Source of the DNA: Buxus sempervirens
Taxonomy: Eukaryota; Streptophyta; Magnoliopsida; Buxales; Buxaceae
Direction of reading: 5' to 3'
Length of the DNA stretch: 64,000 nt
Assembly (NCBI GenBank): GCA_947561395.2
Contig: OX387190.1
Span: 30,870,858 to 30,934,857, forward strand
Below are positions 11,162 through 64,000 of this stretch, one piece after another (the first letter of the stretch is position 1; each line of letters begins with the position of its first letter). Both the position numbers and the translations under genes were made by a program. The notes beneath the pieces are model-generated. The model was given only the letters and a program-made list of their open reading frames with translations. It was not told the origin of the DNA and made no database searches.

Positions 11162-11381
11162 TGAGTGTGGTATGTTCCACGTGACACCACCCGAACAAGA
11201 GAGCACCCTTCAATTGCAGGCGATTTCATCCCGATACCAAATCGAGATTCGAGAAGCCCTACTGCCAAGAGTCGTTACCTCTTTTTAGTGTTTTTTATTT
11301 TTTATTTTTTCAAGAAACAAGGAAGAAGCAAAGAAAACGGTGGCGTGCGGACGGCCGCGTTACGGACTGAACTCTCTTGGC

Positions 11382-31071: not shown

Positions 31072-33434
31072 AAAAGTGTGCTGAAGAGTATGAATTGGAA
31101 GGGGATAAGGCGCCGGGTCTGGATGGCTTCTCATTAGCATTTTTCAAATCATTTTGGCATGTCCTCAAGAAGGACCTTATGGAAGCCATAGAGTTCCATA
31201 GGGAGGGGAGTTTTGAGAAGAGTATGAATGCATCATTCATCGTATTAATTCCTAAGAAGGAGGAGGCAATCAAAGTGCAAGAGTTTAGACCAATTAGCTT
31301 TGTTGGTAGTGTATATAAGATAATTGCAAAACTTTTGGCTAATAGATTGAGAGCGGTTCTCAATACATTAGTATCTCAAGCTTAAGGTGCATTTGTTGGA
31401 GGGAGATAGCTTCAGGATGGTATCCTTGTGGCCAGTGAATGTATAGATACATGCATTAAGGAGAAGAGAAAGATGTTAATGTGCAAATTAGATTTGCAAA
31501 AGGAATATGACAATGTTAATTGGGAGTTTTTATTATATATGCTTAGAAGGATGGGATTTGGAGAAAAATGGAGAAGATGGGTGAGATACTGTGTCTCAAT
31601 AGCGCAGTTATCCGTACTAGTGAATGGATCTACAGTTGGTTTTTTTGGTATTTAGAAAGGTCTGAGGCAAGGGGATCCGCTCTCCCCCCTTCTCTTTACC
31701 ATAATTATGGAAGCTTTTAGTAAGATGATGTCTAGAGCTTCGCAAATGGGGAACATAGAGGGAATTTCATTTGGGGGAGAAGTGAATGTAAGTCACTATT
31801 TGCTGATGATACAAACGTTTTGTAGGCCCACAACCCATCAAGTGAGGTGGTTGAAGGGCATCCTTATGTGTTTTTCCAGGCATGTACGGGGCTGAAGGTC
31901 AACCTGGGAAAAACGAAATGTTTGGGATTGGAGAAGTAGTGAATTTGCAAAATCTAAGCTACTTTTTGGGGTGTAAAGTGAGTAAGTTCTCCACAACTTA
32001 TCTGGGTATTCCACTTGGTGTAGGTTACAAGAAAACTTTAGTGTGGAACTCGATAATAGAAAGAATGGAGAAGAAGCTTTCCTCATGGAAGAGTTGCATC
32101 CTATCCAAGGGGGGCAAGTTGACCTTAGTATTTAGTGTGTTAGCAAGCTTGCCTACATTCTACATGTCAATTATGACCATCCCTACAGCTATGTCCAAGA
32201 GGTTGGAACAAATTCAGAGGAGATTTTTATGGGAAGGTCCGGGGGGAGAATTTAGATACCATTTGGTGGATTGGAAATCCATTTGCAGGATGAAAAGAGA
32301 AGGGGGTCTAGGGATTAGGTCTCTCAAGGTCTTTAATAAGGCATTGCTTCAAAAATGAGTGTGGAGGTACAGTATTGAAAGGAATAACTTATGGAGGAAG
32401 GTGATCCAAATAAAGTATGGTAAAGCCTATGGGGAGTGGTTTCCATGTCAAACAACAGAAACCCTTGGAATGAGTGTGGAAACCAATATCTAGGCTGATG
32501 GAATTAGTTGCAAAAAATTGTAGATTCTCGGTTGGGGATGGTACTAGAATCCGGTTTTGGGAAGACATTTGGTGTGGAAATGGGAGGTTAAAGGACAAAT
32601 ACCCTAATTTATATAATGTTTGTAGAGATAAAGATGCAATGGTTTGTGACTACATGGCGTCTTCTGGTGCTGGAATTGTGTGGGATATAACTCTTAAGAA
32701 GAAACTTGCTAGATTGGGAGATCAACAGCTTTGAAGAAATGTTACAGGAGCTTTACAGTGTCCAATTGGAAAGGGAGGATTCGAGGAAGTGGAGGATCAG
32801 CAGATCTGGATTGTTTACAGTTAAAGAAGCATATGAAAGCCTAGCTCATGCTGGAATCAGATTCCAGGAGAGTAAACTCATATGGGTAAAGTCTATTCCG
32901 ACCAAAGTAACCTTCTACCTATGGGCAGCTGCATTGGATAAGATTCTAACAACTAATCTCCTAAAAAGCAGAGGGTGGTAGATGCCTAATAGGTGTATAA
33001 TGTGCAAGGAAGAGGAAGAAACAGTTCAGCACCTTCTGGTTCATTGTAGGGAGGCAAGGGCGATTTAGCTATCTTTGGATTAGTGTGGGTCCAGCCTAAG
33101 AATTTTGCCTTGGTATTACAATCGTGGGGGCATAGTTCAGAAAAAACCAGGAGAGCTTTATAGTGGAATATAGCTCCAGCAGCTATAGCATGGGGAATTT
33201 GGGCCGAAAGAAACCGGAGGATTTCAAAGATCAAGAAATAAGTGTTGGAGATCTACAGAAAAAAATTCTGCACATGATGTATGCATGGGCTCATCATGGG
33301 CTTCTATTAAGAATCTGTTGGACAATGTACAGATTCAAGAGTTATTATTTGGGGATGCTTCCCTGGATTAGGGGTTGCATAGGATGTACTGGGATATATC
33401 TAACTATTCAATCTCCTTCCTTCTTGTAGTCTTT

Positions 33435-33453
33435 GGTACACTATCTGTGTACC
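33435..33453 (+). promoter_or_regulatory. 3'UTR hairpin of LINE E
   Basis: GGTACAC and GTGTACC separated by TATCT form a 7-bp stem with a 5-base loop about 110 bases before the poly(A). Equivalent hairpins are in LINE A, LINE B and LINE G. Such 3' structures can serve as reverse transcriptase recognition sites in LINEs; that role is inferred here. Confidence 0.55.
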
Positions 33454-33471
33454 AAGACACTTCTTTTTTGG

Positions 33472-36753: not shown

Positions 36754-39667
36754 ATTGGGTTTGATGATTGAGGGAAAGCCTAGTTTTGTCCTTAATCGGA
36801 AACCAAAACTGCTGAAATTGATTCTAAAGAAGTGGAACAAAGAGGAGTTTGGGAGGATAGATGAGCACTTAGCAAAGATTTTGAATCAAATCAAAGAAAT
36901 TGATGCTAGAGAAGAGGAAGAACAGCTGCCTGTGGAGGAATGGATTAGGAGACAGAGATTGAAAACAAAATTTAAGAGATGGGCCTACATGGAAGAAGTG
37001 AATTGGCGTCAGAAATCAAGAGCTATTTGGTTGAAAGCCGGAGACCAAAACACTAAGTTCTTTCATAGGATTGCTAATGCAAGATGGTGTGCAAACTTAA
37101 TTAATAAACTAGAAGGAGAGGGGCAGGTGCATGAAGATGATAAGGTCATTAAGGAGAAATTTTCAGATTTCTTCTTCAATCATTTTAAAGAGGAAAATCA
37201 GTTGAGGCCAGTAGTTGATGGGCTGGAATTTAACATCTTGGGACCAAAAGAAAGGGATAGGTTGGAAAGGCCTTTTTTGGAGTAGGAGGTTAAAGGGGTT
37301 GTTGACCAGATGGAGGGTGATAAGGCACCGGGGCCGGATGGATTTTCCATAAGCCTTCTTCAAGTCTTGTTGGCATGTTGTCAGGAAGGATCTTTTAGCA
37401 GCCATAGATGAGTTTCACAAGGATGGGTGCTTTGAGAAGAGTATGAATGCATCATTCATTGTACTAATTCCTAAGAAGGAGGGGGTCGATCAAGTTGCAA
37501 GATTTTAGGCCCATTAGCCTTGTTGGTAGTGTATACAAGATAATTGCAAAACTTTTGGCTAATAGATTGAAGGATGCTCTTAACCCATTGGTGTCACAAG
37601 CTCAAGGAGCATTTGTTGGAGGGAGGCAGCTTCAGGATGGAATTCTAGTGGCCTGTGAATGTATAGATTCATGTATTAAGGAGAAGAGAGATATGTTATT
37701 GTGCAAGTTGGATTTACACAAGGCATACGACAATGTCAATTGGGAGTTTTTACTATATATGCTTCGGAGGATGGGGTTTAGGGAAAAATGGAGGAGATGG
37801 GTGAGGTATTGTATTTCAATAGCCCGTTTGTCCGTTTTGGTGAATGGGTCTTCAGTTGGCTTTTTTGGCATCCAGAAAGGCCTAAGGCAAGGGGATCCGC
37901 TTTCACCCCTTCTCTTCTCCTTAGTAATGGAAGTGTTCAGCAGATTGATGTATAGGGCCTGGAAAATTGGAAGCCTAGAGGGAGTCACATTTGGGGCAGA
38001 CGTTTCTATTAACCACCTATTGTTTGCTGATGATATTTTAAAATTTTGTAGGCCCACTCTCAACCAAGTTATGTGGCTAAAAGGCATACTTCTCTGTTTC
38101 CAGGCTTGCTCGGGGTTGAAGGTTAATCTGGGTAAGAGTGAGATGTTTGAAATTGGAGAGGTAACAAATATCCAAAACCTAAGTCGTCTTATGGGGTGTA
38201 ATGTGAGCAAGCTTCCGACAACTTATCTAGGAATTCCACTTGGGGCGGGATATAAGAAAGCCACAGTTTGGAATCCGATTGTAGAAAGGATGGAGAAGAG
38301 GCTGTCTTCCTGGAAAAGCTGTATTCTCTTAAAGGGGGGTAAGTTGACCTTGGTATCTAGTGTGTTAGCAGGCATGCCTACATACTTCATGTCAATTATG
38401 AGTATTCCCTCTTCGGTTGCCAAAAGATTAGAATAGATCCAAAGGAGATTCTTATGGGAAGGTTCGGGTGGAGAGTCTAGATTTCATTTGGTGAATTGGA
38501 AAGCTGTGTGCAGGATGAAAAAAGAAGGGGGCCTAGGGATTAGGCCTCTCAAGGTGTTTAATAAAGCATTGCTTCAAAAATGGGTTTGGAGATACGGCAT
38601 CGAAAGGGACAATCTATGGAGGAGGGTGGTCCAAGAAAAGTATGGAAATTCTTTCGGGGATTGGCTCCCATGCCAATCAAAGGACTCGTTTGGGGTAAGC
38701 CTATGGAAACTTATAGCTAAGTTGATGGAGTCAGTTACAAAAGATTGTAGGTTCTTAGTTGGAAATGGAACCAAAGTTCGATTTTGGGATGACATTTGGT
38801 GTGGCAATGGGAGGTTGAAGGAAAAATACCCAAGCCTTTATAATGTTTGTAGAGATAAAGGTGCATTGGTTAGTGATTATAAGACCACTACCAGTGCTGG
38901 TACAGCGTGGAATATAATTCTAAGAAGAAATTTGCTGGACTGGGAGATTAATAGTTATGAAGAATTACTACAGGAAGTATATAGTACCCGATTGGAGCAA
39001 GGGGAGGACTCGAGGAAGTGGAGTTTAAGTAGATTCGGTGTGTTCACAGTTAAAGCAGCATTTGAAATGCTAGCCATTTCTGGATCTTCTTTTTAGGTGA
39101 GTCATGTGTGGTATGGGCTAAGCCTGTACCAAGCAAAGTGGGCTTCTTCATGTGGGCAGCCGCGCTAGACAAGATTCTAACGGTTAATCACTTAAAGAGT
39201 AGAGGGTGGCAGCTTCCTAACCGTTGTATAATGTGTAGGGAAGATGAAGAATCAGTTCAGCACCTTTTGGTTCATTGTAGGGAGGCAAGAACTATTTGGA
39301 ACAGAGTTCTTGCAAGATTCAGAATAGTGTGGGTACAACCTGAGAATTTTGCAAAGGTTCTACAAGTTTGGGGGCAGAGGAAACAAAAATCTAAGAGAGC
39401 ATTACTGTGGAATATCGCCCCAGCAGCAATAGCATGGGGGATTTGGAATGAAAGAAACCACAGGATTTTTAGAGATAAAGAAAAAAGTGTTGTAGAGCTG
39501 GAGAAGAAAATTCTGCACATTATGTTTGGCTGGGCTTCGATCAATAATCTGATGGCTAATGTATCAATTCAAGAATTCCTATTAGGAGATGCATTTCCAG
39601 ATTAGTGGGGTGGCCAGGATATGTTGAGGCTAACCTTCATAGTTTTCTATTCTGTTTTGTAGTCTTT

Positions 39668-39686
39668 GGTATACTATTTGTGTACC
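39668..39686 (+). promoter_or_regulatory. 3'UTR hairpin of LINE A
   Basis: GGTATAC, loop TATTT, GTGTACC: a 7-bp stem with one T-G wobble, about 60-80 bases before the poly(A). It is the counterpart of the LINE E and LINE B hairpins. Confidence 0.5.
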
Positions 39687-39760
39687 AAGACATATATTTT
39701 TTCTTCCTTCTTCTATCATATATATCATCTTAATTACAGATCAAAAAAAAAAAACAAACA

Positions 39761-49208: not shown

Positions 49209-50783
49209 AGCTGGAGGACAATTATACTAGTTTCTTTCATAAATATGCGAATGTAAGAAGTAGGGAGAACAATATTGATTGTTTGGAGGTTGATGGAAAC
49301 TTACTCTTGGAAGAAGAACAAATCAAATCAGAAATATCTAGCTTTTATGCAAGTCAGTTTTTTGAGAAGGCAGTGTTTAGGCCTAAGTTGGATGGTTTGG
49401 GATTTGATTTTATCTCTCAATAGGACAGGGATCTTATGAAAAATGGGTAACTCTAGAAGAATCGGAAGGTGTTGTAAAAGAATTGGAGGGTGATAAATTT
49501 TCGGGGCCGGATGGAATGACAAGCATTTTTTAAAAGATGTTGGCATGTTGTGGCTACTGATTTGTGGAAGCAATACAGTAGTATCTCTCCAATTCTGTTC
49601 TTGAAAAAAGTGTCAATGCCACTTTCCTCTCTCTGATGCTTAAGAAGGATTGTGCAAAAATTTTAAGGGAGTTTAGACCAATCAGTTTAACCAGTAGCTT
49701 TTACAAAATTCTGGCTAAGCTTTTGGCAAATAGATTGAGAACAGTGTTTCCAAAGATTATTTCTAATCCCCAGAATGCGTTTGTAGGAGGTCAGAATATC
49801 TTGGATGGAGTCCTAATTGCAATTGAATGTGTTGACTCTGTATTAAGTAATGAGGACAATTTTATTTTGTGTAAGCTGGACCTTGAGAAGGCATACGATC
49901 ATGTTAATTGGGAGTTTTTTAATACCCGCTACAGAGAATGGGTTTTTGGGAACATTGGAGAAGGTGGATATCCTTCAGCTTATGAACAGTTTCAATGTTA
50001 GTTTTAGTAAATGGACCAGCTACCAGTTTTTTTAAGACTTCTAGCGATCTAAGGCAGGGTGCCGTTTTTCACCTCTTATCTTTATAATTGTTGTGGAAGC
50101 ATTAGAATGTTTAATTCAGATATCAGCAACGGGGGCTTAATCATGGAGTGTTTATAGATGATGGGAACGTCATAATTAAGCATCTACTATTTGCAGATGA
50201 TACGCTGGTTTTCTGTCGTGCTTCTAATCAGCCGCTCCTCATCCTCAGATCAGTGATTTTATGTCTTGAAGCCGTTTCAGGTTTGAAAGTGAATCTCTGA
50301 AAAAGTGATTTTTTGGATGGGCTAAAGACTTCATGCGAAAGATTTTTAACTTATTCTTGAATGCAAAGTGGGCTGATTTCCTTCTTCCTATCTTGGCATT
50401 CCTATTGATGCCTCCTACAAGTTAATTCCAGTGTTGGAACCTTTAGTCACATGATTGGAGAAAAAGCTTGCTGCACGGAAAGGGCTGACTTCATTTTAAG
50501 GATGTAAATTGGCACTCAAGAATAGTGCTTTAGCCAACCTTCCATCTTTATTTCTCTCTATCCTTTGGATCTAAACATCTATAGCACAACAATTAGAGCG
50601 ATTGCAATGAGGATTTTTTTGGAAGGGGTAGGAGGAAGTTTAGAAAAATTATTGGGTGAAATAGGATGATGTGTGCAAGGCATGAGAAGATGGTGGATTA
50701 GGAATTAGATTGATCCTTCTCTTTAATAAGACTTTGCTGGGTAAGTGAATCTGCAGATATAGTAACGAGCCACTTTGTCTTTT
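49209..50783 (+). mobile_element. LINE C, middle segment (reverse transcriptase)
   Basis: It resumes exactly where the 5' segment stopped: after removal of LINE B the frame reads LKLEDNYTSFFHKYANVR across the junction. Reverse transcriptase follows with EFRPISLTSSFYKILAKLLANR (49669-49735), GGQNILDGVLIAIECVDS, CKLDLEKAYDHVNWEFF and LLFADDTLVF (about 50188-50215). Stops and frameshifts are common from 49990 onward. The segment ends in the left copy of the LINE D target duplication (50768-50783) at NEPLCLL. Confidence 0.85.
50768..50783. repeat. Left target site duplication of LINE D
   Basis: AGCCACTTTGTCTTTT; the identical 16-mer is at 63679-63694. The exact right edge is ambiguous by one or two bases because the LINE tail also begins with T here. 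Confidence 0.92.
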
Positions 50784-50834
50784 TATTTTATTTTATAAAG
50801 TGTTTCTTTGCAATCGCAATTGAAAAAAAATACT

Positions 50835-50836
<2 letters not shown>

Positions 50837-50869
<33 letters not shown>
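50837..50869. repeat. Run of 33 G next to the array edge
   Basis: It is followed by TGCGCAAAAGAGCTGAGAAAG. That resembles the array word GGGGTGGGAAAAGAGCTGAG, so the G run may have expanded from a GAGGGGTGGG core in a truncated tenth unit. Assembly error is possible. Confidence 0.85.
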
Positions 50870-50870
<1 letters not shown>

Positions 50871-50893
50871 GCGCAAAAGAGCTGAGAAAGAAA

Positions 50894-52095
50894 GAGAGTT
50901 TTCTATCTTCAAATATACAAGTATAAGTAAGCTTCATTTATACAATTCTGAGATTGGGTAAACCGGATTTATCCAATCTAAAATCGCCAATAATCTCTTA
51001 AGGCAAAAGAGGGGTGGGAAAAGAGCTGAGAAAGACCATTAGCACCAATTTTTGCCAAGGAATCAGCAACCGTATTCACTTCTCTGTAAACGTGAGAGAG
51101 ATGGTAATTGCATGAAGAGAGATGAGATTTGATCTTGGATATCCAATAAACCAAGTGCCAAGGAGGAGAAGATAATCCTTTTATCCAACTGATTAGATTT
51201 TTTTGAATCCGAATCAATATACAAATCATGGTAGCCTGCTGATATACAAATCTCCAAGGCATGAGACAAAGCTTTAACATCAGCTTCATTGTTAGAACAA
51301 TGATAAAAAAAGATGGAGAAAGCCAATATAAAAGCGCCATTAGCATCTCTAAGAATACCACCGCCTCCTCCTAGTCCTGGGTTTCCAAGAGAGGAACCAT
51401 GTATATTCAGCTTCAGAAATCCAATGGCAGGTTTCAACCACTTAAGTGATAGAATAGATGAAGATCTGCAACTTAAGGTAGGGATACCAAGGTCTATGAG
51501 AGAAGAAATTGATTCTCTTTTTTTGTCCTTCTTCGGAATGAAGAGAAACATAATTTCCCTTATGAAACGTAATTCTGGAAAGAAGCTGGTCAGTAGAAGT
51601 AATAAGATTGTCATATAATCTCCTGTTGCACTCTTTCCAAATCTCTCAAATGATCAAACAAGGAACCAGAATATGGAGAAAGCCTCCTTGAGATTTCGTT
51701 GAGGACTTAGAGAACCAAATCATTAGAAAAGAGAAAAGTGAAGAATCTCAAAATTGGAAGTTCATGATTCGACTAAAGTGATTCCAAAGAGAAACAGCAA
51801 GGTCACTTTGAAGAAATAAATGTTCTATGTTTTCTGATTGATGTGAAGAACAAGTACATCTGGAAGCTAATTGAATTCCAAGACGTTGGATATCTTGGTC
51901 CAAAGGTACTGCTTTATGACGAAGCTTCCAAAGGAAAATTGAAACTTTCATGGGGATCCACTTTACCCAGAGAAAGCGCCAAATCACAAGCATATGATAA
52001 TGAGGAGAAAAAATTCCACAGGCGGATTTCAAGGAAAATTTACCTGAGGGATTTAGATTCCAAATAAATCTGTCCTCTTGTTGAAAGAAAAGAAA
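50894..52095 (-). pseudogene. Array unit 1 (1202 bp)
   Basis: The zf-RVT frame is at 52032-51748 and RNase H at 51614-50978. An extra T in the run near 51199-51206 shifts the frame inside RNase H. The first catalytic Asp is His here (LNIHGSSLGNPG); the NTVADSLAK Asp is kept. A 24-bp RNase H fragment and the G run lie beyond its 3' side. Confidence 0.85.
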
Positions 52096-53303
52096 GAGAG
52101 TTTTCTATCTTCAAATATACAAGTATAAGTAAGCTTCATTTATACAATTCTGAGATTGGGTAAACCGGATTTATCCAATCTAAAATGGACGATAATCTCT
52201 TTAGGCCAAAGAGAGGGGTGGGAAAAGAGCTGAGAAAGACCATTAGCACCATTTTTTGCAAAGGAATCAGCTACTGTATTCACTTCTCTGTAAACTTGAG
52301 AGCGATGGTAATTGCATGAAGAGAGATGAGATTTGATCTTGGATATCCAATAAACCAAGGGCCAAGGAGGAGAAGATAATCCTTTTGTCCAGCCGATTAT
52401 ATTTTTTGAATCCGAATCAATATAAAAATCATGGTTGTCTGCTGATATACAATTCTCCAAGGCATGAGACAAAGCTTTAACTTCAGCTTCTTTGTTAGAG
52501 CAATGATAGAAAAAGATGGAGAAAGCAACTATAAAAGAGCCATTAGCATCTCTAAGAATACCACCGCCTCCTCCTAGTCCTGGGTTTTCAAGAGAGGAAC
52601 CGCCTATATTCAGCTTCAGAAATCCAATGGGAGGTTCCATCCACTTAAGTGATAGAATAGATGAAAATCTGCAACTTAAGGTAGGGATACCAAGGTCTGT
52701 GAGAGAAGAAATTGATTTTGTATTGTTGTCGTTCTTTGGAATGAAGAGAAACATAATTTCCTTTATATGAAACGTAAATCTGGAAGGAAGCTGGTGAGTA
52801 GAAGTAATAAGATTGTCTTATAATCTCCTGTTGCGCTCTTTCCAAATCTCCCAAATGATCGAAAAAGGAACCAGAATATGGAGAAAGCCTACTTGAGATT
52901 CCGTTGAGGACTTAGAGAACCAACCCATGAGAAAAGAGAAAAGTGAAGCATCTTTAAATTGGAAGTTCATGATTCGACAAAAGTGCTTCCAAAGAGAAAC
53001 AGCAAACTCACTTTGAAGAAATAAATGTTCTATGTTTTCTGATTGATGTGAAGAACAACAAGTACATCCGGAAGCTAACTGAATTCCAAGATGTTGGATA
53101 TCTCAGTCCAAAGGTACTGCTTTATGAAGAAACTTCCAAAGGAAAACTGAAACTTTCATGGGGATCCACTTTACCCAAAGAAAGCGCCAAATCACATGCA
53201 TATGATAATGAATAGAAAAAATTCCATAGGCTGATTTCAAGGAAAATTTACTTGAGGGATTTAGATTCCAAATAAATCTGCCCTTTTGTTGAAAGAAAAG
53301 AAA
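52096..53303 (-). pseudogene. Array unit 2 (1208 bp)
   Basis: A 204-codon RNase H frame (52754-52140) is open, but the first catalytic Asp is Gly (LNIGGSSLENPG). The last block reads NTVADSFAK. The zf-RVT part has a stop (GAATAG on the plus strand near 53209 belongs to the variant-B end shared with units 4 and 7). Confidence 0.85.
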
Positions 53304-54511
53304 GAGAGTTTTCTATCTTCATGTATACAAGTAAAAGTATGCTTCATTTATACAATTCTGTGATTGCGTAAACCATATTTATCCAATCTAAAATGGCCAA
53401 TAATCTCTTTAGGCGAAAGAGAGGGGTGCGAAATGAGCTGAGAAAGATCATTAGCACCAATTTTTGCCAAGGAATCAGCAATATTATTCACTTCTCTGTA
53501 AACGTGAGAGAGATGGTAAATGCATGAAGAGAGATGAGATTTGATTTTGGATATCCAATAAAAAAAGTGCCAAGGAGAAGAAGATAATCCTTTTTTCCAG
53601 CTGATTAAAGTTTTTAAATCCGAATCAATATACAAATCATGGTAGCCTGCTGATATACAAATCTCCAAGGCATGAGACAAAGCTTTAACTTCAGCTTCAT
53701 TGTTAGAACAATGATAAAAAATGATGGATAAAGCCAATATAAAACAGCCATTAGCATCTCTAAGAATAGCACCGCATCCTCCTGGTCCTGGGTTTCCAAG
53801 AGAGGAACCATCTATATTCAGCTTCAGAAATCCAATGGGAGGTTTCAACCACTTAAGTGATAGAATACATGAAGATCTGCAACTTAATGTAGGGATACCA
53901 AGGTCTATGAGAGAAGAAATCGATTCTCTATTGTTGTCCTTGTTTGTAAAGAAGAGAAACATAATTTCCTTTATATGAAATGTAGTTCTGGAAAGAAGCT
54001 GGTCAGTAGAAGTAATAAGATTGTCATATAATCCCCTGTTGCGCTCTTTCCAAATCTCCCAAATGATCAAACAAGGAACCAGAATATAGAGAAAGCCTTC
54101 TTGAGATTTCGTTGAGGACTTAGAGAACCATCTGATTAGATGAGTTTAAAGTGGAGCATCTTTAAATTTGAAGTTCATGATTTGACTAAAGTGCTTCCAA
54201 AGAGAAACAGCAAGCTCACTTTGAAGAAATAAATGTGTTGTGTTTTCTGATTGATGTGAAGAAGAACAAGTACATCTGGAAGTTAATTGAATTCCAAGAC
54301 GTTGGATATCTTGTTCCAAAGGTACTGCTTTATGAAGAAGCTTCCGAAGGAAAATTGAAACTTTCATGGGGATCCACTTTACCCAGAGAAAGCGCCAAAT
54401 CACATGCATATGATAGTGAGGAGAAAAAATTCCAGAGGCTGATTTCGAGGAAAATTTACCTGCGGGAATTAGATTCCAAATAAATCTGTCCTGTTGTTGA
54501 AAGAGAAGAAA
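53304..54511 (-). pseudogene. Array unit 3 (1208 bp)
   Basis: RNase H is open from 54070 to 53348 (240 codons) and keeps all four acidic positions (LNIDGSS, NNEAEVKAL, DSD, NNIADSLAK). zf-RVT (54409-54146) is separated from it by a stop near 54145. Confidence 0.85.
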
Positions 54512-55719
54512 GAAAGTTTTCTATCTTCAAATATACAAGTAAAAGTAAGCTTCATTTATACAATTTTGAGATTGGGTAAACCGGATTTATCCAATCTAAA
54601 ATGGCCGATAATCTCTTTATGCAAAAGAGAGGGGTGGGAAAAGAACTGAGAAAGACCATTAGCACCAATTTTTGCCAAGTAATGAGCAACGATATTCACT
54701 TCTCTGTAAACGTGTGAGTGATGGTAATTTCATGAAGAGAGATGAGATTTGATCTTTGATATCCAATAAACCAAGTGCCAAGGAGGAGAAGATAATCCTT
54801 TTATCCAGCTGATTAGATTTTTTGAATCTGAATCAATATACAAATCATTGTAGCCTGCTGATATACAAATCTCCAAGGCATGAGACAAAGGTTTAACTTC
54901 AGCTTCATTGTTAGAACAGTGATAGAAAAAGATGGAGAAAGCAAATGTAAAAGAGCCATTAGCATTTCTAAGAATACCACCGCCTCCTCCTAGTCCTGGG
55001 TTTCCAAGGGAGGAACCATCTATATTCAGCTTCAGAAATCCAATGGCAGGTTTCAACCACTTAAGTGATAGAATAGATGCAAATCTGCAACTGAAGGTAG
55101 GGATACCAAGGTCTATGAGAGAAGAAATTGATTTTCTATTGTTGTCCTTCTTTGGAATGAAGAGAAACATAATTTCCTTTATATGAAATGTATTTCTGGA
55201 AAGAAGCTGGTTAGTAGAAGTAATGAGATTGTCTTATAATCTCCTGTTGCGCTCTTTCCAATTCTCCCAAGTGATCGAACAAGGAACCAGAATATGGAGA
55301 AAGCCTTCTTGAGATTTCGTTGAGGACTTAGCGAACCAACTCGATTGAGTAGAGAAAAGTGAAGCATCTTTAAATTTGAAGTTCATGATTCGACTAAAGT
55401 GCTTCGAAAGAAAAACAGCAAACTCACTTTGAAGAAATAAATGTTCTATGTTTTCTGATTGATGTGAAGAACAACAAGTACATCCGGAAGCTAATTGAAT
55501 TCCAAGATGTTGGATATCTCAGTCCAAAGGTACTGCTTTATGAAGAACCTTCCAAAGGAAAAGTGAAACTTTCATGGGGATCCACTTTACCCAAAGAAAG
55601 CGCCAAATCACATACATATGATAATGAATAGAAAAAATTCCATAGGTTGATTTCAAGGAAAATTTACTTGAGGGATTTAGATTCCAAATAAATCTGCCCT
55701 TTTGTTGAAAGAAAAGAAA
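54512..55719 (-). pseudogene. Array unit 4 (1208 bp)
   Basis: RNase H is open 55170-54730 with LNIDGSS and NNEAEVKPL. It stops before the final block, where the Asp has become His (VAHYLAK). Its 5' end carries the variant-B junction (GAATAG). Confidence 0.83.
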
Positions 55720-56922
55720 GAGAGTTTTCTATCTTCACGTATACAAGTAAAAGTATGCTTCATTTATACAATTCTGAGATTGGGTAAACTGGATTTATCC
55801 AATCTAAAATGGCCAATAATCTCTTTAGGCAAAAGTGGGGGGTGTGAAAAGAACTGAGAAAGACCATTAGCATCAATTTTTGCTAAGGAATCAGCAACAG
55901 TATTCACTTCTCTGTAAACGTGAGAGAGGTGGTAATTGCTTGAAGAGAGATGAGATTTCATCATGGATATCCAATAAACGAAGTGCCAAGGAGGAGAAGA
56001 TAATTCTTTTATCGAGCCGATTATATTTTTTGAATCCGAATCAATATAGAAATCATGGTAGTCTGCTGATATACAATTCTCCAAGGCATGAGACAAAGCT
56101 TTAACTTCAGCTTCTTTGTTAGAGCAATGATAGAAAAAGATGGAGAAAGCAAATATAAAAGAGCCATTAGCATCTCTAAGAATACCACCGCCTCCTCCTA
56201 GTCCTGGGTTTTCAAGAGAGGAACCACCTATATTCAGCTTCAGAAATCCAATGGGAGGTTTCAACCACTTAAGTGATAGAATACATGAAAATCCGCAACT
56301 TAAGGGTGGGATAACAAGGTCTATGAGGGAAGAAATTGATTTTGTATTGTTGTCGTTCTTTGGAATGAAGAGAAACATAATTTGCTTGATATGAAATGTA
56401 ATTCTGGAAAGAAGCTGGTGAGTAGAAGTAATAAGATTGTCTTATAATCTCCTGTTGCGCTCTTCCAAATCTCCCAAATGATCGAAAAAGGAACCAGAAT
56501 ATGGAGAAAGCCTTCTTGAGATTTCGTTGAGGACTTAGCGAGCCTACTAAATTGAAAAGAGAAAAGTGAAGCATCTTTAAATTGGAAGTTCATGATTCGA
56601 CAAAAGTGCTTCCATAGAGAAACCGCAAACTCACTTTGAAGAAATAATTGTTCTATGTTTTCTGATTGATGTGAAGAACAAAAAGTACATCTGGAAGCTA
56701 ATTGAATTCCAAGACGTTGGATATCTTAGTTCAAAGGTACTGCTTTATGAAAAAGCTTCTAAAGGAAAACTGAAACTTTCATGGGGATCCACTTTACCCT
56801 GAGAAAGCGCCAAATCACATGCATATGATAATTAGGAGAAAAAGTTCCATTGGCTGATTTCAAGGAAAATTTACTTGCGGGATGTAGATTCAAAATATAT
56901 CTGTCCTCTTGTTGAAAGAAAA
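55720..56922 (-). pseudogene. Array unit 5 (1203 bp)
   Basis: A 204-codon RNase H frame (56378-55764) is open, with Gly in place of the first Asp (LNIGGSSLENPG, as in unit 2) and NTVADSLAK intact. The 3' 250 bases are almost identical to unit 8. Confidence 0.85.
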
Positions 56923-58140
56923 GAGAGTTTCTATCTTCGAATATACAAGTAAAAGTAAGCTTCATTTATATAATTCTGAGATTGGGTAAACCGGATTTAT
57001 CCAATCTAAAATGGCCGATAATCTCTTTAGGCAAAAGAGAGGGGTGGGAAAAGAGCTGAAAAAGACCATTAGCACCAATTTTTGCCAGGGAATGAGCAAC
57101 GGTATTCACTTCTCTGTAAACGTGAGAGCGATGGTAATTGCATGAAGAGAGATGAGATTTGATCTTGGATAGCCAATAAACCAAGTGCCAGGGAGGCGAA
57201 TATAATCCTTTTATCCAGTTGATTAGATTTTTTGAATCCGAATCAATATACAAATCATGGTAGCCTGCTGATATACAAATCTCCAAGGCATGAGACAAAG
57301 CTTTAACTTCAGCTTCATTGTTAGAATAGTGATAGAAAAAGATGGAGAAAGCAAATATAAAAGAGCCATTAGCATTTCTAAGAATACCACCGCCTCCTCC
57401 TAGTCCTGGGTTTTCAAGAGAGGAACCACTTATATTCAGCTTCAGAAATCCAATGGGAGGTTTCAACCACTTAAGTGATAGAATTGATTAAAATCTGCAA
57501 CTTAAGGTAGGGATACCAAGGTCTTTGAGAGAAGAAATTGATTCTCTATTGTTTGTCCTTGTTTGGAATGAAGAGAAACATAATTTCCTTTATATGAAAT
57601 GTAGTTCTGGAAAGAAGCTGGTCAGTAGAAGTAATAAGATTGTCATATAATCTCCTGTTACGCTCTTTCCAAATCTCCCAAATGATCAAACATGGAACCA
57701 GAATATGGGGATAGCGGCGATAGCCTACTTGAGATTTCGTTGAGGACTTAGAGAACCAACTCATTAGAAAAGAGAAAAGTGAAGCATCGCGAAATTGGAA
57801 GTTCTTGATTCGACTAAAGTGCGTCCAAAGAGAAACAACAAGCTCACTTTGAAGAAATAAATGTTCTATGTTTTCTGATTGATGTGAAGAACAACAAGTA
57901 CATCTTGAAGCTAATTGAATTCGAAGATGTTCGATGTCTTGGTCCAAATGTTTTGCTTTATGAAGAAGCTTTCAAAGGAAAACATGAAACTTTTATGGGG
58001 ATCCACTTTACCCAGAGAAAGAGCCAAATCACATGCATATGATAATGAGGAGAAAAAATTCCATAGACTGGTTTCAAGGAAAATTTACCTGACGGATTTA
58101 GCTTCCATATAAATTTGTCGTCTTGTTGAAAGAAAATAAA
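56923..58140 (-). pseudogene. Array unit 6 (1218 bp)
   Basis: RNase H is open 57466-56966 but has Ser for the first Asp (LNISGSS) and His for the last (NTVAHSLAK). zf-RVT (57947-57546) is in a separate frame. A small insertion near 57710-57720 (GGATAGCGGCGATAGC) adds length. Confidence 0.85.
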
Positions 58141-59399
58141 GAGAGTTTTCTATCTTCAAATATACAAGTAAAAGTAAGCTTCATTTATACAATTCTGAGA
58201 TTGGGTGAACTTGATTTATCCAATCTAAAATGGCCGATAATCTATTTAGGTAAGAGAGAGGGGTGGGAAAAGAGCTGAGAAAGACCATTAGCTCCAATTT
58301 TTGCCAAGGAATCAGCAACAGTATTCACTTCTCTGTAAACGTGAGAGAGATGGTAATTGCAAGAAGAGAGATGAGATTTGATCTTGGATATCCAATAAAC
58401 CAAGTACCAAGGAGGAGAAGATAATCCTTTCATCCAGCTGATTACATTTTCTGAATCCGAATAAATGCACAAATCATGGTAGCGTGCTGATATACAAATC
58501 TCCAACGCATGAGACAAAGCTTTAACTTCAGCTTCATTGTTAGAGCAATGATAAAAAAAAATGGAGAAAGCCAATATAAGAGAACCATTATCATCTCTAA
58601 GAATACCACCGCCTCCTCCTAGTCCTGGGTTTCCAAGAGAGGAACCATCTATATTCAGCTTCAGAAATCCAGTCGGAGGTTTCACCACTTAAGGGATAGA
58701 ATAGATGAAGATTTGCAACTTAAGTTAGGGATACCAAGGTCTATGAGAGAAGAAATTGATTCTCTTGTTTTGTCCTTTGGAATGAAGAGAAACATAATTT
58801 CCTTTATATGAAATGTAATACATGGAAGAAGCTGGTTAGTAGAAGTAATAATATTGTTATATAATCTCCTGTTGAGCTCTTTCCAAATTTCCCAAATGAT
58901 CAAACAAGGAACCAGAATATGGAGAAAGTCTCCGTTTGATTTCGTTTAGGACTTAGAGAACCAACTAATTAGAAAAAAGAAAAGTGAAGCATCTCAAAAT
59001 TGGAGGCTTAGAGAACCAACTAATTAGATAAGAGAAAAGTGAGGCATCTCGAAATTGGAGGTTCATGATTCGACTAAAGTGCTTCCAAAGAGAAACAGCA
59101 AGCTCACTTTGAAGAAATAAATGTTCTATGTTTTCTGATTGATGTGAAGAACAACAAGTACATCCGGAAGCTAATTGAATTCCAAGACGTTGGATATCTT
59201 GGTCCTAAGGTACTTCTTTATGAAGAACCTTCCAAAGGAAAAGTGAAACTTTCATGGGGATCCACTTTACCCAAAGAAAGCGCCAAATCACATGCATATG
59301 ATAATGAATAGAAAAAATTCCATAGGCTGATTTCAAGGAAAATTTACTTGAGGGATTTAGATTCCAAATAAATCTTCCCTTTTGTTGAAAGAAAAGAAA
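58141..59399 (-). pseudogene. Array unit 7 (1259 bp)
   Basis: RNase H (58688-58242) keeps all four acidic positions. A frame change near 58685 cuts it from the zf-RVT side (58903-58682). A 55-bp internal tandem duplication (CTTAGAGAACCAACTAATTAG at 58952 and 59007) explains the extra length. Its 5' end is variant B. Confidence 0.85.
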
Positions 59400-60615
59400 G
59401 AGAGTTTTCTATCTTCACGTATACAAGTAAAAGTATGCTTCATTTATACAATTCTGAGATTGGGTAAACTAGATTTATCCAATCTAAAATGGCCAATAAT
59501 CTCTTTAGGCAAAAGTGGGGGGTGGGAAAAGAACTGAGAAAGACCATTAGCATCAATTTTTGCTAAGGAATCAGCAACAGTATTCACTTCTCTGTAAACG
59601 TGAGAGAGGTGGTAATTGCTTGAAGAGAGATGAGATTTCATCATGGATATCCAATAAACGAAGTGCCAAGGAGGAGAAGATAATCCCTTTATCCTGCTGA
59701 TTAGATTTTTTGAATCCGAATCAATATACAAATCATGGTAGCCTGCTGATATACAAATCTCCAAGGCTTGAGACAAAGCTTTATCTTCAGCGTCATTGTT
59801 AGAACAATGGTAAAAAAATATGGAGAAAGCAAATATAAAACTGCCATTGGCATCTCTAAGAATACCACCCCCTCCTCCTAGTCCTGGGTTTCCAAGGGAG
59901 GAACCATCTATATTCAGTTTCAGAAATCCAATGGGAGGTTTCAACCACTTAAGTGACAGAATAGATGAAGATTTGCAACTTAAGGTAGGGATACCAAGGT
60001 CTATGATGGAAGAAATTGATTCTCTATTGTTGTCCTTCTTTGGAATGAAGATGAAGAGAAACATAATTTGCTTGATATGAAATGTAATTCTGGAAAGAAG
60101 CTGGTCAGTAGAAGTAATAAGATTGTCATATAATCTCATGTTGCGGTGTTTCCAAATCTCCCAAATGATCAAACAAGGAACCAGAATATGGAGAAAGCCT
60201 CCTTGAGATTTCGTTGAGGACTTAGAGAACCAACCCATTAGAAAAGAAAAAAGTGAAGCATCTCGAAATTGGAAGTTCATGATTCGACTAAAGTGCTTCC
60301 AAAGGGAAACAGCACGCTCACTTTGAAGAAATAAATGTTCTATGTTTTCTGGTTGATGTGAAGAAGAACAAGAACATCCGGAAGCTAATTGAATTCCAAG
60401 ACGTTGGATATCTTTGTCCAAAGGTACTGCTTTTTGAAGAAGCTTCCAAAGGAAAACTGAAACTTTCATTGGGTTCCACTTTACCCAGAGAAAGCGCCAA
60501 ATCTCATGCATATATGATAATGAGGAGAAAAAATTCCATAGGCTAATTTCAATGAAAATTTACCTGAGGGATTTAGATGCCAAATAAATCGTTCCTCTTG
60601 TTGAAAGAAAAGAAA
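59400..60615 (-). CDS. Array unit 8 with intact 355-codon zf-RVT/RNase H frame
   Basis: The only unit with one uninterrupted frame (60511-59444) from the zf-RVT (MHEIWRFLWVKWNPMKVSVF, CSCSSSHQPENIEHLF) through RNase H to the natural stop after LRIV. All four acidic RNase H positions are present (NIDGSS, NNDAEDKAL, DSDS, NTVADSLAK). The hydrophobic stretch before RNase H carries a two-codon insertion (FIFIPKKDN). There is no evidence of a promoter or of selection; it may simply be the youngest or luckiest copy. Confidence 0.7.
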
Positions 60616-61822
60616 GAGTTTTATATCTTCTCTTCAAATATACAAGTAAAAGTAAGCTTCATTTATACAATTCTGGGATTGGGTAAACCAGATTTATCCA
60701 ATCTGAATTGGCCGATATTCTCTTTAGGCAAAAGAGGGGTGGGGAAAGAGCTGAGAAATACCATTAGCACCAATTTTTGCCAGGGAATGAGCAACGGTAT
60801 TCACTTCTCTGTAAATGTGAGAGCGATGGTAATTGCATGAAGAGAGATGCATGAAGAGAGATGAGATTTGATCTTGGATATCCAATGAAGCATGTGCCAA
60901 TGAGGAGAAGATAATCCTTTTATCCAGCTGATTAGATTTTTTGAATCCGAATCAATATACCAATCATGGTAACCTGCTGATATAGAAATTTCCAAGGCAT
61001 GAGATAGAGCTTTAACTTCAACTTCATTGTTAGAACAATGATAAAAAAAGATGGAGAAAGCCAATATGAAAAAGCCATTAGCATCTCTAAGAATACCACC
61101 GCCTCCTAGTCCTCGGTTTCGAAGAGAGGAACCATCTATTTTCGGCTTCAGAAATCCAATGGGAGATTTCAACCACTTAAGTGATAGAATAGATGAAGAT
61201 CTGCAACTTAAGGTAGGGATACCAAGGTCTATGAGAGAAGAAATCGATTCTCTATTGTTTTCCTTCTTTGGAATGAAGAGAAACATAATTTCCTTTATAT
61301 GAAATGTAATTCTGGAAAGAAGCTGGTCAGTAGAAGTAATTAGATTGTCATATAATCTCCTGTTGCGCTCTTTCCGAATCTCCCAAATGATCAAACAAGG
61401 AACCAGAATATGGAGAAAGCCTCCTTGAGATTTCGTTGAGGACTTAGAGAACCAAGTCATTAGAAAAGAGAAAAGTGAAGCATCTTGAAATTGGAAGTTC
61501 ATGATTCGACTAAAGTGCTTTCAAAGAGAAACGGCAAGCTCACTTTGAAGAAATAAATGTTCTATGTTTTCTGATTGATGTGAAGAAGATCAAGAACGTC
61601 CGGAAGGTAATTGAATTCCAAGACGTTGGATATCTTTGTCCAAAGGTACTGCTTTTTGAAGAAGCTTCGAAAAGAAAACTGAAACTTTCATTGGGTTCCA
61701 CTTTACCCAGAGAAAGCGCCAAATCACATGCATATGATAATGAGGAGAATAAATTCCATAGGCTGATTTCAAGGAAAATTTACGTAAGGGATTTAGCTTC
61801 CAAATGAATCTGTCCTCTTTTT
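60616..61822 (-). pseudogene. Array unit 9, continuous with the ORF2 fusion
   Basis: The RNase H side is open 61502-60801 (233 codons), with LDRL...zf-RVT at 61964-61590 ahead of it. The glycine run after RNase H block 1 is one codon shorter than in other units. The first Asp is present (KIDGSS), but the last is His (VAHSLA), and a short internal duplication lies at 60838-60862. This unit runs without a break into upstream LINE D sequence. Confidence 0.85.
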
Positions 61823-61956
61823 GAGATAAATGAAAACCAAGGGAATCTAAAGATTCCCGCAAGCAAGTGAAAAGGATTTGTGATAGATCAGCTTGGTTAA
61901 ATGCATCTTTGATAGAAATGTCATCTGGGAAGACATGGAAAGAAGAAGAAAGTCTA

Positions 61957-61995
61957 TCCAACACCCCGAATATTCCATATTAGAGCTCTAAACAT
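61957..61995 (-). pseudogene. ORF2 start fused to a distant part of ORF2
   Basis: ATG at 61995-61993 is followed by FRALIWNIRGVG, the standard first strand of an L1 endonuclease, then a stop two bases later. In another frame the sequence continues LDRLSSSFHVF of the zf-RVT upstream region. About 2.5-3 kb of ORF2 (endonuclease, linker, reverse transcriptase) is missing relative to LINEs A-C. Confidence 0.8.
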
Positions 61996-62130
61996 GATTA
62001 GTTGGATGTTTAGATTTTGTTCTGGTAGAAACACCTGAAGTTGATGAAGGTTTGGCACTTGCTGATGCTCCTGAATTCCTAGATAAATTCTTCCGATGTT
62101 TGCTCTTCCGAAGGTAGGAAGAGATTAATT

Positions 62131-63540
62131 CTATGCCTGAGCAAGTATTGTTATGGTGATCAGGAAGGGCATAATCACCTTCAATATCAGAGTGAATGAC
62201 AAGAGTGCCATCAAATCAGAGAGAGAATCCGTAACATCTTCTTGATCACTTGGAGAGTTTGGAGCCAGATTAGTAGAATAGGAGAGACCACCTGAGTTTA
62301 AAACACTGAAAGTTGAAGATTGTGGATCAATTTCCTGGTTTGTCAAGATAATTGCAGGATCATTTTCCTTGTCTGTTTGTTGCCTTAAAGTTTCTTGATA
62401 ATTAAGAGGAGCTTCAATAACAGAGGTTGATTGATTTGGGAGAAAAATGTCAGCTGCTTCTATTGATATTTTATTTGAATCTCCAAATGCTGTAGTCGAT
62501 TGAGAATGATGAAAATCGCATGAGAAAGCAGGAGCTACTGAGGTTGATTGATTCTTGTGAGGAGCATTAAGACTTTCCTTGTTCAAAGCTGTTGATGCTG
62601 AGATCAATTGACTTTGATGTACTTTTTTTGTTGCTGATGAGATCAACTCTTGTTGATTGGCCTGTAACATTGGCTTATCAAAAGGATTCAGATGAACAAG
62701 AATAGGATCAAAAGAGACTTGTTTATCTTTTCGCTTGGCATTTGAAGCTTCAGTGGGATTTGTTGGTAAAGAAGGGAGTTTGTGGCATTCTTCCTTGGAG
62801 TGATCTTGCGTGGAACAATGGTGACAGTATTTGGGAAGGTTTTCAAAAATTATCTTTTGCCAGAAACCTGAACCTTTTCTGGTAATAATCCAGATCCGGC
62901 TAGGAGGAGCTTTCACAACTGATACTTCAATACATACTCTAGCCATGCTTGGATGTGCGAGGGCAAGAGTAGCTTGATCAATTTTCAAAACCCTACCAAT
63001 GGTTGACGCAATGGGTTTGAGAAGAGAAGGATTAAAAAAATTTAAAGGAAGAAGAGGAAATTGTGCCCAAACAGGAGTGATTGCAGACTCTTTTTTTGGT
63101 TCGAAATCTAGGCTCCATCTAAACATGCGGTAGAGGAAACTGTTAAGAAAGGGAGAATTTCTTGTCCAAGCTATAAGAAAATCCGTTTCAGAAGAGAGCT
63201 TGAGCTTGATATGACGGTGATCTATCAAACCGGCTGTGAACGGGGATGAGAAACCCCAAGAGGAAAGAGCAGTTCTGATGTCATCCATTGCTGGTCTGCC
63301 CCTTGAGAATTTTAATATCAAAGTGAAAGAGAAGTCTTCTTCTGATCGAGCAATGTCACTGGGAGAAAAGGAAACAAAGATCTCTTTGTCCTTGGAACCA
63401 ATGTGTGGTGATGATGGGAATTCAGTAAACTTGGAGTGTCCAAGAACAGCAGCAGCATAAGAGGGCTTCAGAGTAGAAGAAGAGCTTGTCGGTGACGCCT
63501 GCGGAGTTACCGCCGCCGGTAGGGGGTTCGATGAGGACAT
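62131..63540 (-). CDS. LINE D ORF1: DUF4283 and CCHC zinc-knuckle protein
   Basis: 469 codons, from the ATG at 63540 (MSSSNPLPAAV). After a Ser/Pro-rich start comes the DUF4283 domain (about residues 35-200; FSLILKFSRGRP-like, DIRTALSSWGF, FLYRMFRWSLDFEP, PVWAQFPLLPLNFF). A zf-CCHC_4 knuckle follows (YCHHCSTQDHSKEECHKL, about 232-250), then a long Gln/Ser/Asn-rich tail. DUF4283 proteins of plant L1 LINEs are RNA-binding ORF1 products that package the LINE RNA. The frame is undamaged over its whole length, in contrast to ORF2 next door, which suggests recent insertion. ORF1 and the ORF2 remnant are about 135 bases apart. Confidence 0.85.
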   Translation of the reverse strand: MSSSNPLPAAVTPQASPTSSSSTLKPSYAAAVLGHSKFTEFPSSPHIGSKDKEIFVSFSPSDIARSEEDFSFTLILKFSRGRPAMDDIRTALSSWGFSSPFTAGLIDHRHIKLKLSSETDFLIAWTRNSPFLNSFLYRMFRWSLDFEPKKESAITPVWAQFPLLPLNFFNPSLLKPIASTIGRVLKIDQATLALAHPSMARVCIEVSVVKAPPSRIWIITRKGSGFWQKIIFENLPKYCHHCSTQDHSKEECHKLPSLPTNPTEASNAKRKDKQVSFDPILVHLNPFDKPMLQANQQELISSATKKVHQSQLISASTALNKESLNAPHKNQSTSVAPAFSCDFHHSQSTTAFGDSNKISIEAADIFLPNQSTSVIEAPLNYQETLRQQTDKENDPAIILTNQEIDPQSSTFSVLNSGGLSYSTNLAPNSPSDQEDVTDSLSDLMALLSFTLILKVIMPFLITITILAQA

Positions 63541-63678
63541 TCAAAAAAAATTCGACAGAGATTGCAACAAATTAACAAGATTGCATATCCTCAACGATAT
63601 CAACAGCGAAGAAACGAAGGGAACCAGCGATCAGAGATTTGAAGCTGCGAATCAATCTCTGAATAAAAAAACAAAACC
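63541..63678 (-). promoter_or_regulatory. 5'UTR of LINE D
   Basis: 138 bases between the ORF1 start and the insertion edge; in minus orientation it begins just inside GGTTTTGT. L1-type LINEs usually carry an internal promoter here, but no specific box was recognised. Confidence 0.45.
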
Positions 63679-64000
63679 AGCCACTTTGTCTTTTGGGGAC
63701 TCTAACCATGTCAAAATATGGGTTGCCGAGGAGATTGTTTCCTAAGAAATCTACCATTCCGTTTGGTACAAGTTTGTGGAGACCTATAAGCAAATATGTG
63801 TATGAACTCAAGGCTGTTATTCGGTTAGTGGAAGATGGGAGGAGAGTTAACTTCTGGCTAGATAAATGGTGTGTTGGATGTTTGTTGAGGGATATATTCT
63901 TAAACATTTATGACATTAACTGCACTAAAGATGCTTGGGTAAGTGATCTTCTTCAAGTTAATAATCAGTCTCAAGTTAATCTGATGTTATGAAGAAACCT
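63679..64000 (+). mobile_element. LINE C, 3' segment (zf-RVT part), continues beyond the window
   Basis: It begins with the right copy of AGCCACTTTGTCTTTT (63679-63694). After removal of LINE D the frame continues from RYSNEPLCLL into GTLTMSKYG without a gap. It reads on through IPFGTSLWRPISKYV, DGRRVNFWLDKWCVG and IYDINCTKDAWVSDLL, the entry to zf-RVT seen in LINEs A, B and E. The frame is open from 63693 to near the window end. Confidence 0.87.

Follow-up and report, generated by a model that had tools for sequence, protein, structure and literature searches.

The 64,000-nucleotide stretch of Buxus sempervirens DNA analysed here (C12:30870858-30934857, hereafter the window) contains a tandem array made from the tail of a long interspersed nuclear element (LINE) of the plant L1 type, lying inside the insertion whose 3' part it repeats. 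The array probably arose in place, by local duplication of the LINE tail followed by out-of-register exchange or repair copying between the repeats, although the mutations carried by its units are harder to account for than its layout. We judge the locus to be a nascent (young), unusually well bounded and single-locus case of a LINE-derived satellite.

Self-comparison of the window resolves nine head-to-tail units of 1183-1259 bp, all on the minus strand and in LINE orientation, between 50887 and 61826. This bears out the original prediction, made from the sequence alone, of nine such units within one LINE, with lengths of 1.18-1.26 kb against the 1.20-1.26 kb first given. Each unit starts just upstream of the zf-RVT domain and continues through RNase H and the stop codon of the second open reading frame (ORF2) into about 60 nt of 3' untranslated region (UTR), again as predicted. 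Pfam was run on pieces of three units. U2 matched both zf-RVT and RVT_3/RNase_H, a piece of U7 and one of U1 matched RVT_3/RNase_H, and the piece from the start of U1 matched zf-RVT; the other six units were assigned by alignment to these throughout. The protein of the unit has three distant database matches. Numbering runs 5' to 3' along the LINE, with bounds on the plus strand:

60590-61826, minus strand: U1, by alignment, with a 14-bp internal tandem duplication at 60834-60863
59374-60589, minus strand: U2, by alignment, with the longest open frame (371 codons) and a 2-bp insertion near its start
58115-59373, minus strand: U3, by alignment, with a 55-bp internal tandem duplication at 58952-59061
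56901-58114, minus strand: U4, by alignment
55694-56900, minus strand: U5, by alignment, a mosaic, with array-only variants shared with U8 across the middle and with U2 at the 3' end
54486-55693, minus strand: U6, by alignment
53278-54485, minus strand: U7, by alignment
52070-53277, minus strand: U8, by alignment
50887-52069, minus strand: U9, by alignment, of the nine units the closest to the genome's single copies

Pairwise identity among the units is 89.2-93.5%, a difference of 6.5-10.8%, and self-alignments of the array extend to 8.2 kb at 90%, which excludes a chance origin. Two of the checks suggested at the outset, a self dot plot and a repeat caller, diverged: self-comparison displays all nine copies, and Tandem Repeats Finder did not return the array, its longest period being 500. 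At the internal junctions, 3'UTR sequence ending in TTTCA is joined to ORF2 sequence at CTCAACAAG, with a 3-bp overlap (TCA) read by eye against the single copies. The word proposed as a signature of this junction is real and peculiar to the array, its two exact matches in the whole genome both lying inside it, but it is exact at only two of the eight internal junctions and carries 1-3 mismatches at the other six. As head-to-tail units of one transposable-element segment, the array has the make-up of an element-derived tandem repeat, or nascent satellite.

The genome searched comprises 676.5 Mb in 247 contigs. A search with U2 gave at least 40 matches (39 of the 43 candidates were scored), and counts taken from it are lower bounds. 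It missed the window's own nine units, whereas a search with ORF1 did list the window, so tandem arrays may go under-reported by the U2 search. As close relatives we took 28 loci (L003-L030), representing 27 places since L017 and L025 overlap; a second unit is absent from the 1.5-kb flanks of all of them, except for one 97-bp piece, at 75%, in L004. Two of these loci, L003 and L004, lie 43.5 kb apart on C9, are 98.9% identical in the unit and have similar flanks, and are probably a segmental duplication. Four others (L021, L024, L029 and L030) are partial 3' copies of the same LINE, all on the plus strand, within 60 kb at C10:39.565-39.625 Mb.

What kind of element carries the array? The carrier and its immediate surroundings comprise the following features, in which EN and RT denote the endonuclease and reverse transcriptase of ORF2, and TSD a target-site duplication:

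50784-63679, minus strand: whole L1 insertion of 12,896 bp, delimited by TSD and insert length and nested in an older plus-strand L1
63679-63694, no strand: TSD copy on the element's 5' side, AGCCACTTTGTCTTTT on the plus strand, a 16-bp exact match to 50768-50783
50768-50783, no strand: TSD copy on the element's 3' side, an exact match, directly after the A-rich tail
62131-63540, minus strand: ORF1 (DUF4283 by Pfam), 469 codons from stop to stop, its frame broken once near the 3' end as read by eye
61930-61979, minus strand: junction of the apparent EN-RT deletion (about 61957), where the start of ORF2 is joined to the stretch before zf-RVT
50875-50891, minus strand: 17-bp exact match to the RNase H-coding sequence of the units, between the 3'UTR of U9 and the poly-C tract
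50837-50869, minus strand: run of 33 C on the LINE strand, at a poly-C tract that varies among the 3'UTRs of the family
50784-50836, minus strand: closing part of the 3'UTR and A-rich tail, both also present in the family's single copies

The TSD is exact over 15 bp, or 16 counting one neighbouring base; in a control, a common 15-mer occurred in 0 of 253 same-spacing pairs in the window. When the flanks of the insertion are joined they form one frame with a few stops that resembles, by eye, ORF2 of a plus-strand L1. With ORF1 of the DUF4283 type, zf-RVT and RVT_3/RNase_H in the window, RVT_1 in the relative L010, and an A-rich 3' tail and TSD in the carrier, the family has the features of an RNase H-bearing plant L1. 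The carrier itself is not an intact LINE. Its ORF1 is broken where a relative reads through, and after ORF1 come about 13 codons of ORF2 (by eye) and then directly the stretch before zf-RVT. Judged from coordinates, this leaves it short by 2.58-2.81 kb against seven relatives and by 3.13 kb against one more distant copy; all eight relatives compared continue past the deletion point in shared sequence, and none has the deletion. In L010, the part before zf-RVT that the carrier is missing includes RVT_1 (Pfam, E 1.4e-11); in L034, the stretch after the ORF2 start looks EN-like by eye only, two pieces of it having no Pfam match. The carrier, then, reads as a deletion derivative lacking RT and, by eye, EN, inserted with a TSD of its own, both of which the original prediction had missed. 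Without its own EN and RT it would not be autonomous and therefore could have been mobile only in trans.

At its 5' end the carrier begins inside the family's 5'UTR. A full-length 5' end was considered and rejected: in five of the seven relatives checked (L035-L039) the shared sequence reaches 172 bp or more further out, and the carrier's first 19 nt do not match these five. Beyond the array's 3' edge, the 17-bp RNase H piece may record a template switch during repair. The adjoining homopolymer, poly-G on the plus strand, was considered as a mark of faulty assembly and rejected: runs of 21-44 C stand at the same place in 4 of 18 other copies (L007, L014, L016 and L026), the other 14 having 2-6 C.

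The nine units share one origin and have exchanged sequence since. A maximum-likelihood tree of 27 rows, covering the nine units and 18 of the 28 loci, groups the units, relative to these genome copies, in a single clade (support 95/94; 94% of 200 bootstrap trees). Identity is 91.55% between units, 91.62% between units and 14 single copies, and 93.39% among those single copies themselves, four outliers having been left out. Exchange was analysed on 62 array-only variants common to 2-7 units. Neighbouring variant sites are incompatible in 9 of 61 cases, against 29.8 in shuffles, none of 5000 shuffles being as low, and units three apart share more variants (mean 7.83) than units one apart (4.25), a peak with a permutation p of 0.00025, or 0.0021 for the best of lags 1-4. 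The clearest mosaic is U5, U8-like through the middle and U2-like at its 3' end. Blocks together with a lag of three are the pattern that out-of-register exchange in three-unit steps plus conversion would leave; homogenisation is weak, the units remaining as far apart as given above. The single clade, the variant blocks and the lag-three peak all support the earlier proposal of a local duplication followed by unequal exchange.

No coding function is kept in the array, and its frames are dead. A frameshift or a stop breaks every unit at least once, not counting a stop at codon 9 reported for all units, which is a product of U2's own shifted frame. U5, U6 and U8 have a common TAA at one place and all three have a stop at a second (TAA in U5, TGA in U6 and U8), which probably means that units already dead were copied. 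Differences of U1-8 from the single copies fall evenly on the three codon positions (170:150:160; transversions 86:78:83). From pairs that are not independent, the pooled dN/dS comes to 0.81 overall, dropping to 0.64 for RNase H, a figure that carries no significance test; coding selection on the array was rejected because this hint of constraint is not upheld by the even codon positions. An Asp, which we take to be the first catalytic residue of RNase H, is lost in four of the nine units (U4, U5, U8 and U9). The open frames under constraint that would mark a gene for a multi-RNase H protein are thus not found in these units, and the notion of a meaningful array of RNase H domains is not supported, given the broken frames, the even codon positions and the lost Asp.

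The mutations themselves do not fit a single clock. Counted against the majority of the single copies, C>T/G>A changes per GC site amount to 0.038 for U1-8, and the ORF1 that belongs to their element has 0.035, so that units and ORF1 are of equal age by this deamination measure. Transversions per site, by contrast, are 0.0273 in U1-8 against 0.0036 in that ORF1, a more than sevenfold difference (transversions versus transitions, Fisher p = 2.5e-5), and T>C/A>G changes per AT site are 0.0186 against 0.0072. Compared with 12 single copies over the same region, U1-8 have a median transversion load of 0.0271 against 0.0104 (Mann-Whitney p = 6.4e-5; the single copies range over 0.0026-0.0195 per site, with L010 at the top), and they are also higher in T>C/A>G (p = 0.0007), while for C>T/G>A there is no excess (p = 0.43). 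The derived events confined to the array number 285, of which transversions make up 182 and C>T/G>A changes 37. Those common to at least two units, 64 in all, have the same make-up (39 and 8), which places the process in the period of unit copying and makes base-calling error an improbable source. The array changes are also asymmetric by strand (T>A 50 versus A>T 11, p = 0.00012). U9 is milder, with transversions at 0.0154 and a total divergence of 2.7% against 4.5-6.4% in U1-8. Clustering of substitutions was rejected as a signal: 33-44% of the U1-8 differences lie within 4 bp of another, and a rough by-head expectation for random placement at that density is similar.

We propose the following course of events. 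An L1 copy without RT, and by eye without EN, would have entered an older L1 by target-primed insertion, as the TSD and A-rich tail suggest. Within this insertion, 1.2 kb reaching from just upstream of zf-RVT to some 60 nt beyond the stop of ORF2 would have been duplicated head to tail, and out-of-register exchange or repair copying between the repeats, including three-unit steps, would then have raised the number to nine while mixing segments between units. The copying may have been mutagenic, leaving in U1-8 the extra transversions and A:T>G:C changes that the element's own ORF1 lacks. We infer that the duplication took place as DNA rather than RNA, in situ, with error-prone repair synthesis behind the excess. 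Break-induced replication at non-B DNA is described as combining heavy mutation with microhomology template switching in the abstract of PMC11161834. That the amplification itself was hypermutagenic, with error-prone, strand-biased repair synthesis building the units, perhaps from breaks near the edge poly-C/poly-G, is a tentative idea that we consider rather doubtful; the role of that tract is speculation, and elsewhere long C runs go with single copies. Mutagenic copying is a possible source of the extra load, and for now we cannot explain the transversion load of the array.

Could the array be older than the insertion? In a mobile, non-autonomous lineage the units might have drifted over many cycles of retrotransposition, gathering errors of reverse transcription and few deaminations, while selection kept ORF1, the whole 12.9 kb then being inserted here once. 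This would account for an equal deamination age alongside a transversion-rich extra in the units, and the TSD and A-tail do bound the whole element. No sibling was found: the exact junction word occurs only here, the flanks of the 28 loci contain no second unit and the deletion is present in 0 of 8 relatives (the U2 search may miss arrays); U9, moreover, should be as diverged as the rest rather than at 2.7%. We regard this history as unlikely. Still further from the evidence is the idea that U1-8 are older, were already tandem at a different locus and reached a young LINE through homologous exchange or the insertion of a circle, which would explain why they are about twice as diverged as U9 and ORF1. 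Their deamination load equals that of ORF1, and neither the junction word nor the flanks of the 28 loci, within the same limit of the U2 search, revealed a donor array; of all the explanations weighed here, we give this one the least credence.

Two further possibilities would shift the origin to a single copying event or to the assembly. LINE RTs are able to jump between templates, and tandem units laid down by such jumps in one insertion event would fit the strand asymmetry, which one-strand copying could produce. The junctions, however, run from mid-3'UTR to mid-ORF2 with no A-tail or 3' end, the lag-of-three blocks suggest stepwise exchange, and the single copy L005 carries only 0.26% transversions, so that a single round of copying by what is presumably the same RT falls short of 2.7%; we consider template jumping highly improbable. 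An artefact, in which one or two true units were expanded or base errors entered the repeat, draws on the difficulty of assembling tandem arrays and on array-specific substitutions that are near random in type. Expansion of one or two units is made unlikely by the 6.5-10.8% that separates the units, whose shared variants lie in blocks; short frame-breaking indels are few, unlike typical long-read error, and poly-C runs like that at the edge occur in other copies. We hold this to be very unlikely, though marginally less so than template jumping.

Several observations weigh against amplification in place, or against the mutagenic copying attached to it. We found no second array by the exact junction word or around the 28 loci, an absence that is not firm given what the U2 search may miss. 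Recombined units violate the model behind the tree. The mutation spectrum is not unique to the array: three single copies (L010, L014 and L017) are likewise rich in transversions, and the 0.0187 of U4 falls within the range of the single copies, which reaches 0.0195. The stretch of 132 bp preceding U1, which is present once here, shows 8 differences including 3 transversions, and this misfits an effect confined to the units. The comparison with ORF1 rests on 37 differences, and an extra load of at least 2% per unit is far above known error rates of repair synthesis.

The array illustrates a route by which repetitive DNA can come into being. As a rule, the descent of satellites from mobile elements is inferred only long afterwards; here the first steps of satellite birth are readable because the parent insertion, its TSD, the junction and relatives present as single copies can all still be seen. 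The clock within one insertion, with C>T/G>A equal and transversions unequal, yields a testable claim that amplification adds mutations. If that claim is true, a newborn satellite would already be several percent diverse, the divergence of its units would badly overestimate its age, and the dating of arrays would be biased.

Elsewhere in the window, two further plus-strand L1 segments lie at 31096-33469 and 37311-39702 and are 76.6% alike. An open frame of 903 codons at 11289-14000 is an LSD1-like SWIRM/amine oxidase gene; among the best 120 of 1409 matches, its closest is from Tetracentron sinense (75% over 91%).

How does the array compare with known systems? Plant L1 elements of the Ta11/L1 type have an archaea-like RNase H with a CCHC motif upstream of it, according to the excerpted text of PMC5348765, and the relatives found here are alike in that motif, sharing ORF1 followed by RT, zf-RVT and RNase H; the carrier differs in lacking the RT part and in having its C-terminal segment nine times. 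The original prediction knew of no described LINE with this form. For plants, no LINE with an ORF2/3'UTR tandem array appears in the titles and abstract openings of the matches listed from the literature on LINE arrays and plant retroelements. As a general statement it needs qualifying, because satellites from LINE ORF2 and/or 3'UTR have been reviewed, those named in the excerpts of PMC9659126 being chicken HinfI (from CR1) and, from L1, the common cetacean satellite, PROsat and Pvc 20; the cetacean satellite and PROsat are also tabulated in the corresponding part of PMC6947457. Chicken HinfI (SCR1) is, like the array here, a tandem unit of partial LINE ORF2 plus 3'UTR (PMC9659126, excerpts), but it is a named satellite, as opposed to one array of nine 1.2-kb units that still lies within the plant L1 insertion it came from. 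The mammalian L1 satellites, drawn from the 3' end (common cetacean) or ORF2 (PROsat, Pvc 20), are likewise LINE pieces turned tandem in the same excerpts, and differ in host group and segment. In Lathyrus, most satellites studied begin as short arrays in the 3'UTR of Ogre elements, which are long terminal repeat (LTR) retroelements, as stated in the excerpted part of PMC7004042. The Ogre satellites of Lathyrus sativus described there resemble our case in using the 3' region of a plant retroelement and in starting as short arrays within the element; Ogre arrays, however, recur in many copies of an LTR element, whereas the Buxus array was found at one locus, belongs to a LINE and includes coding sequence in its unit.

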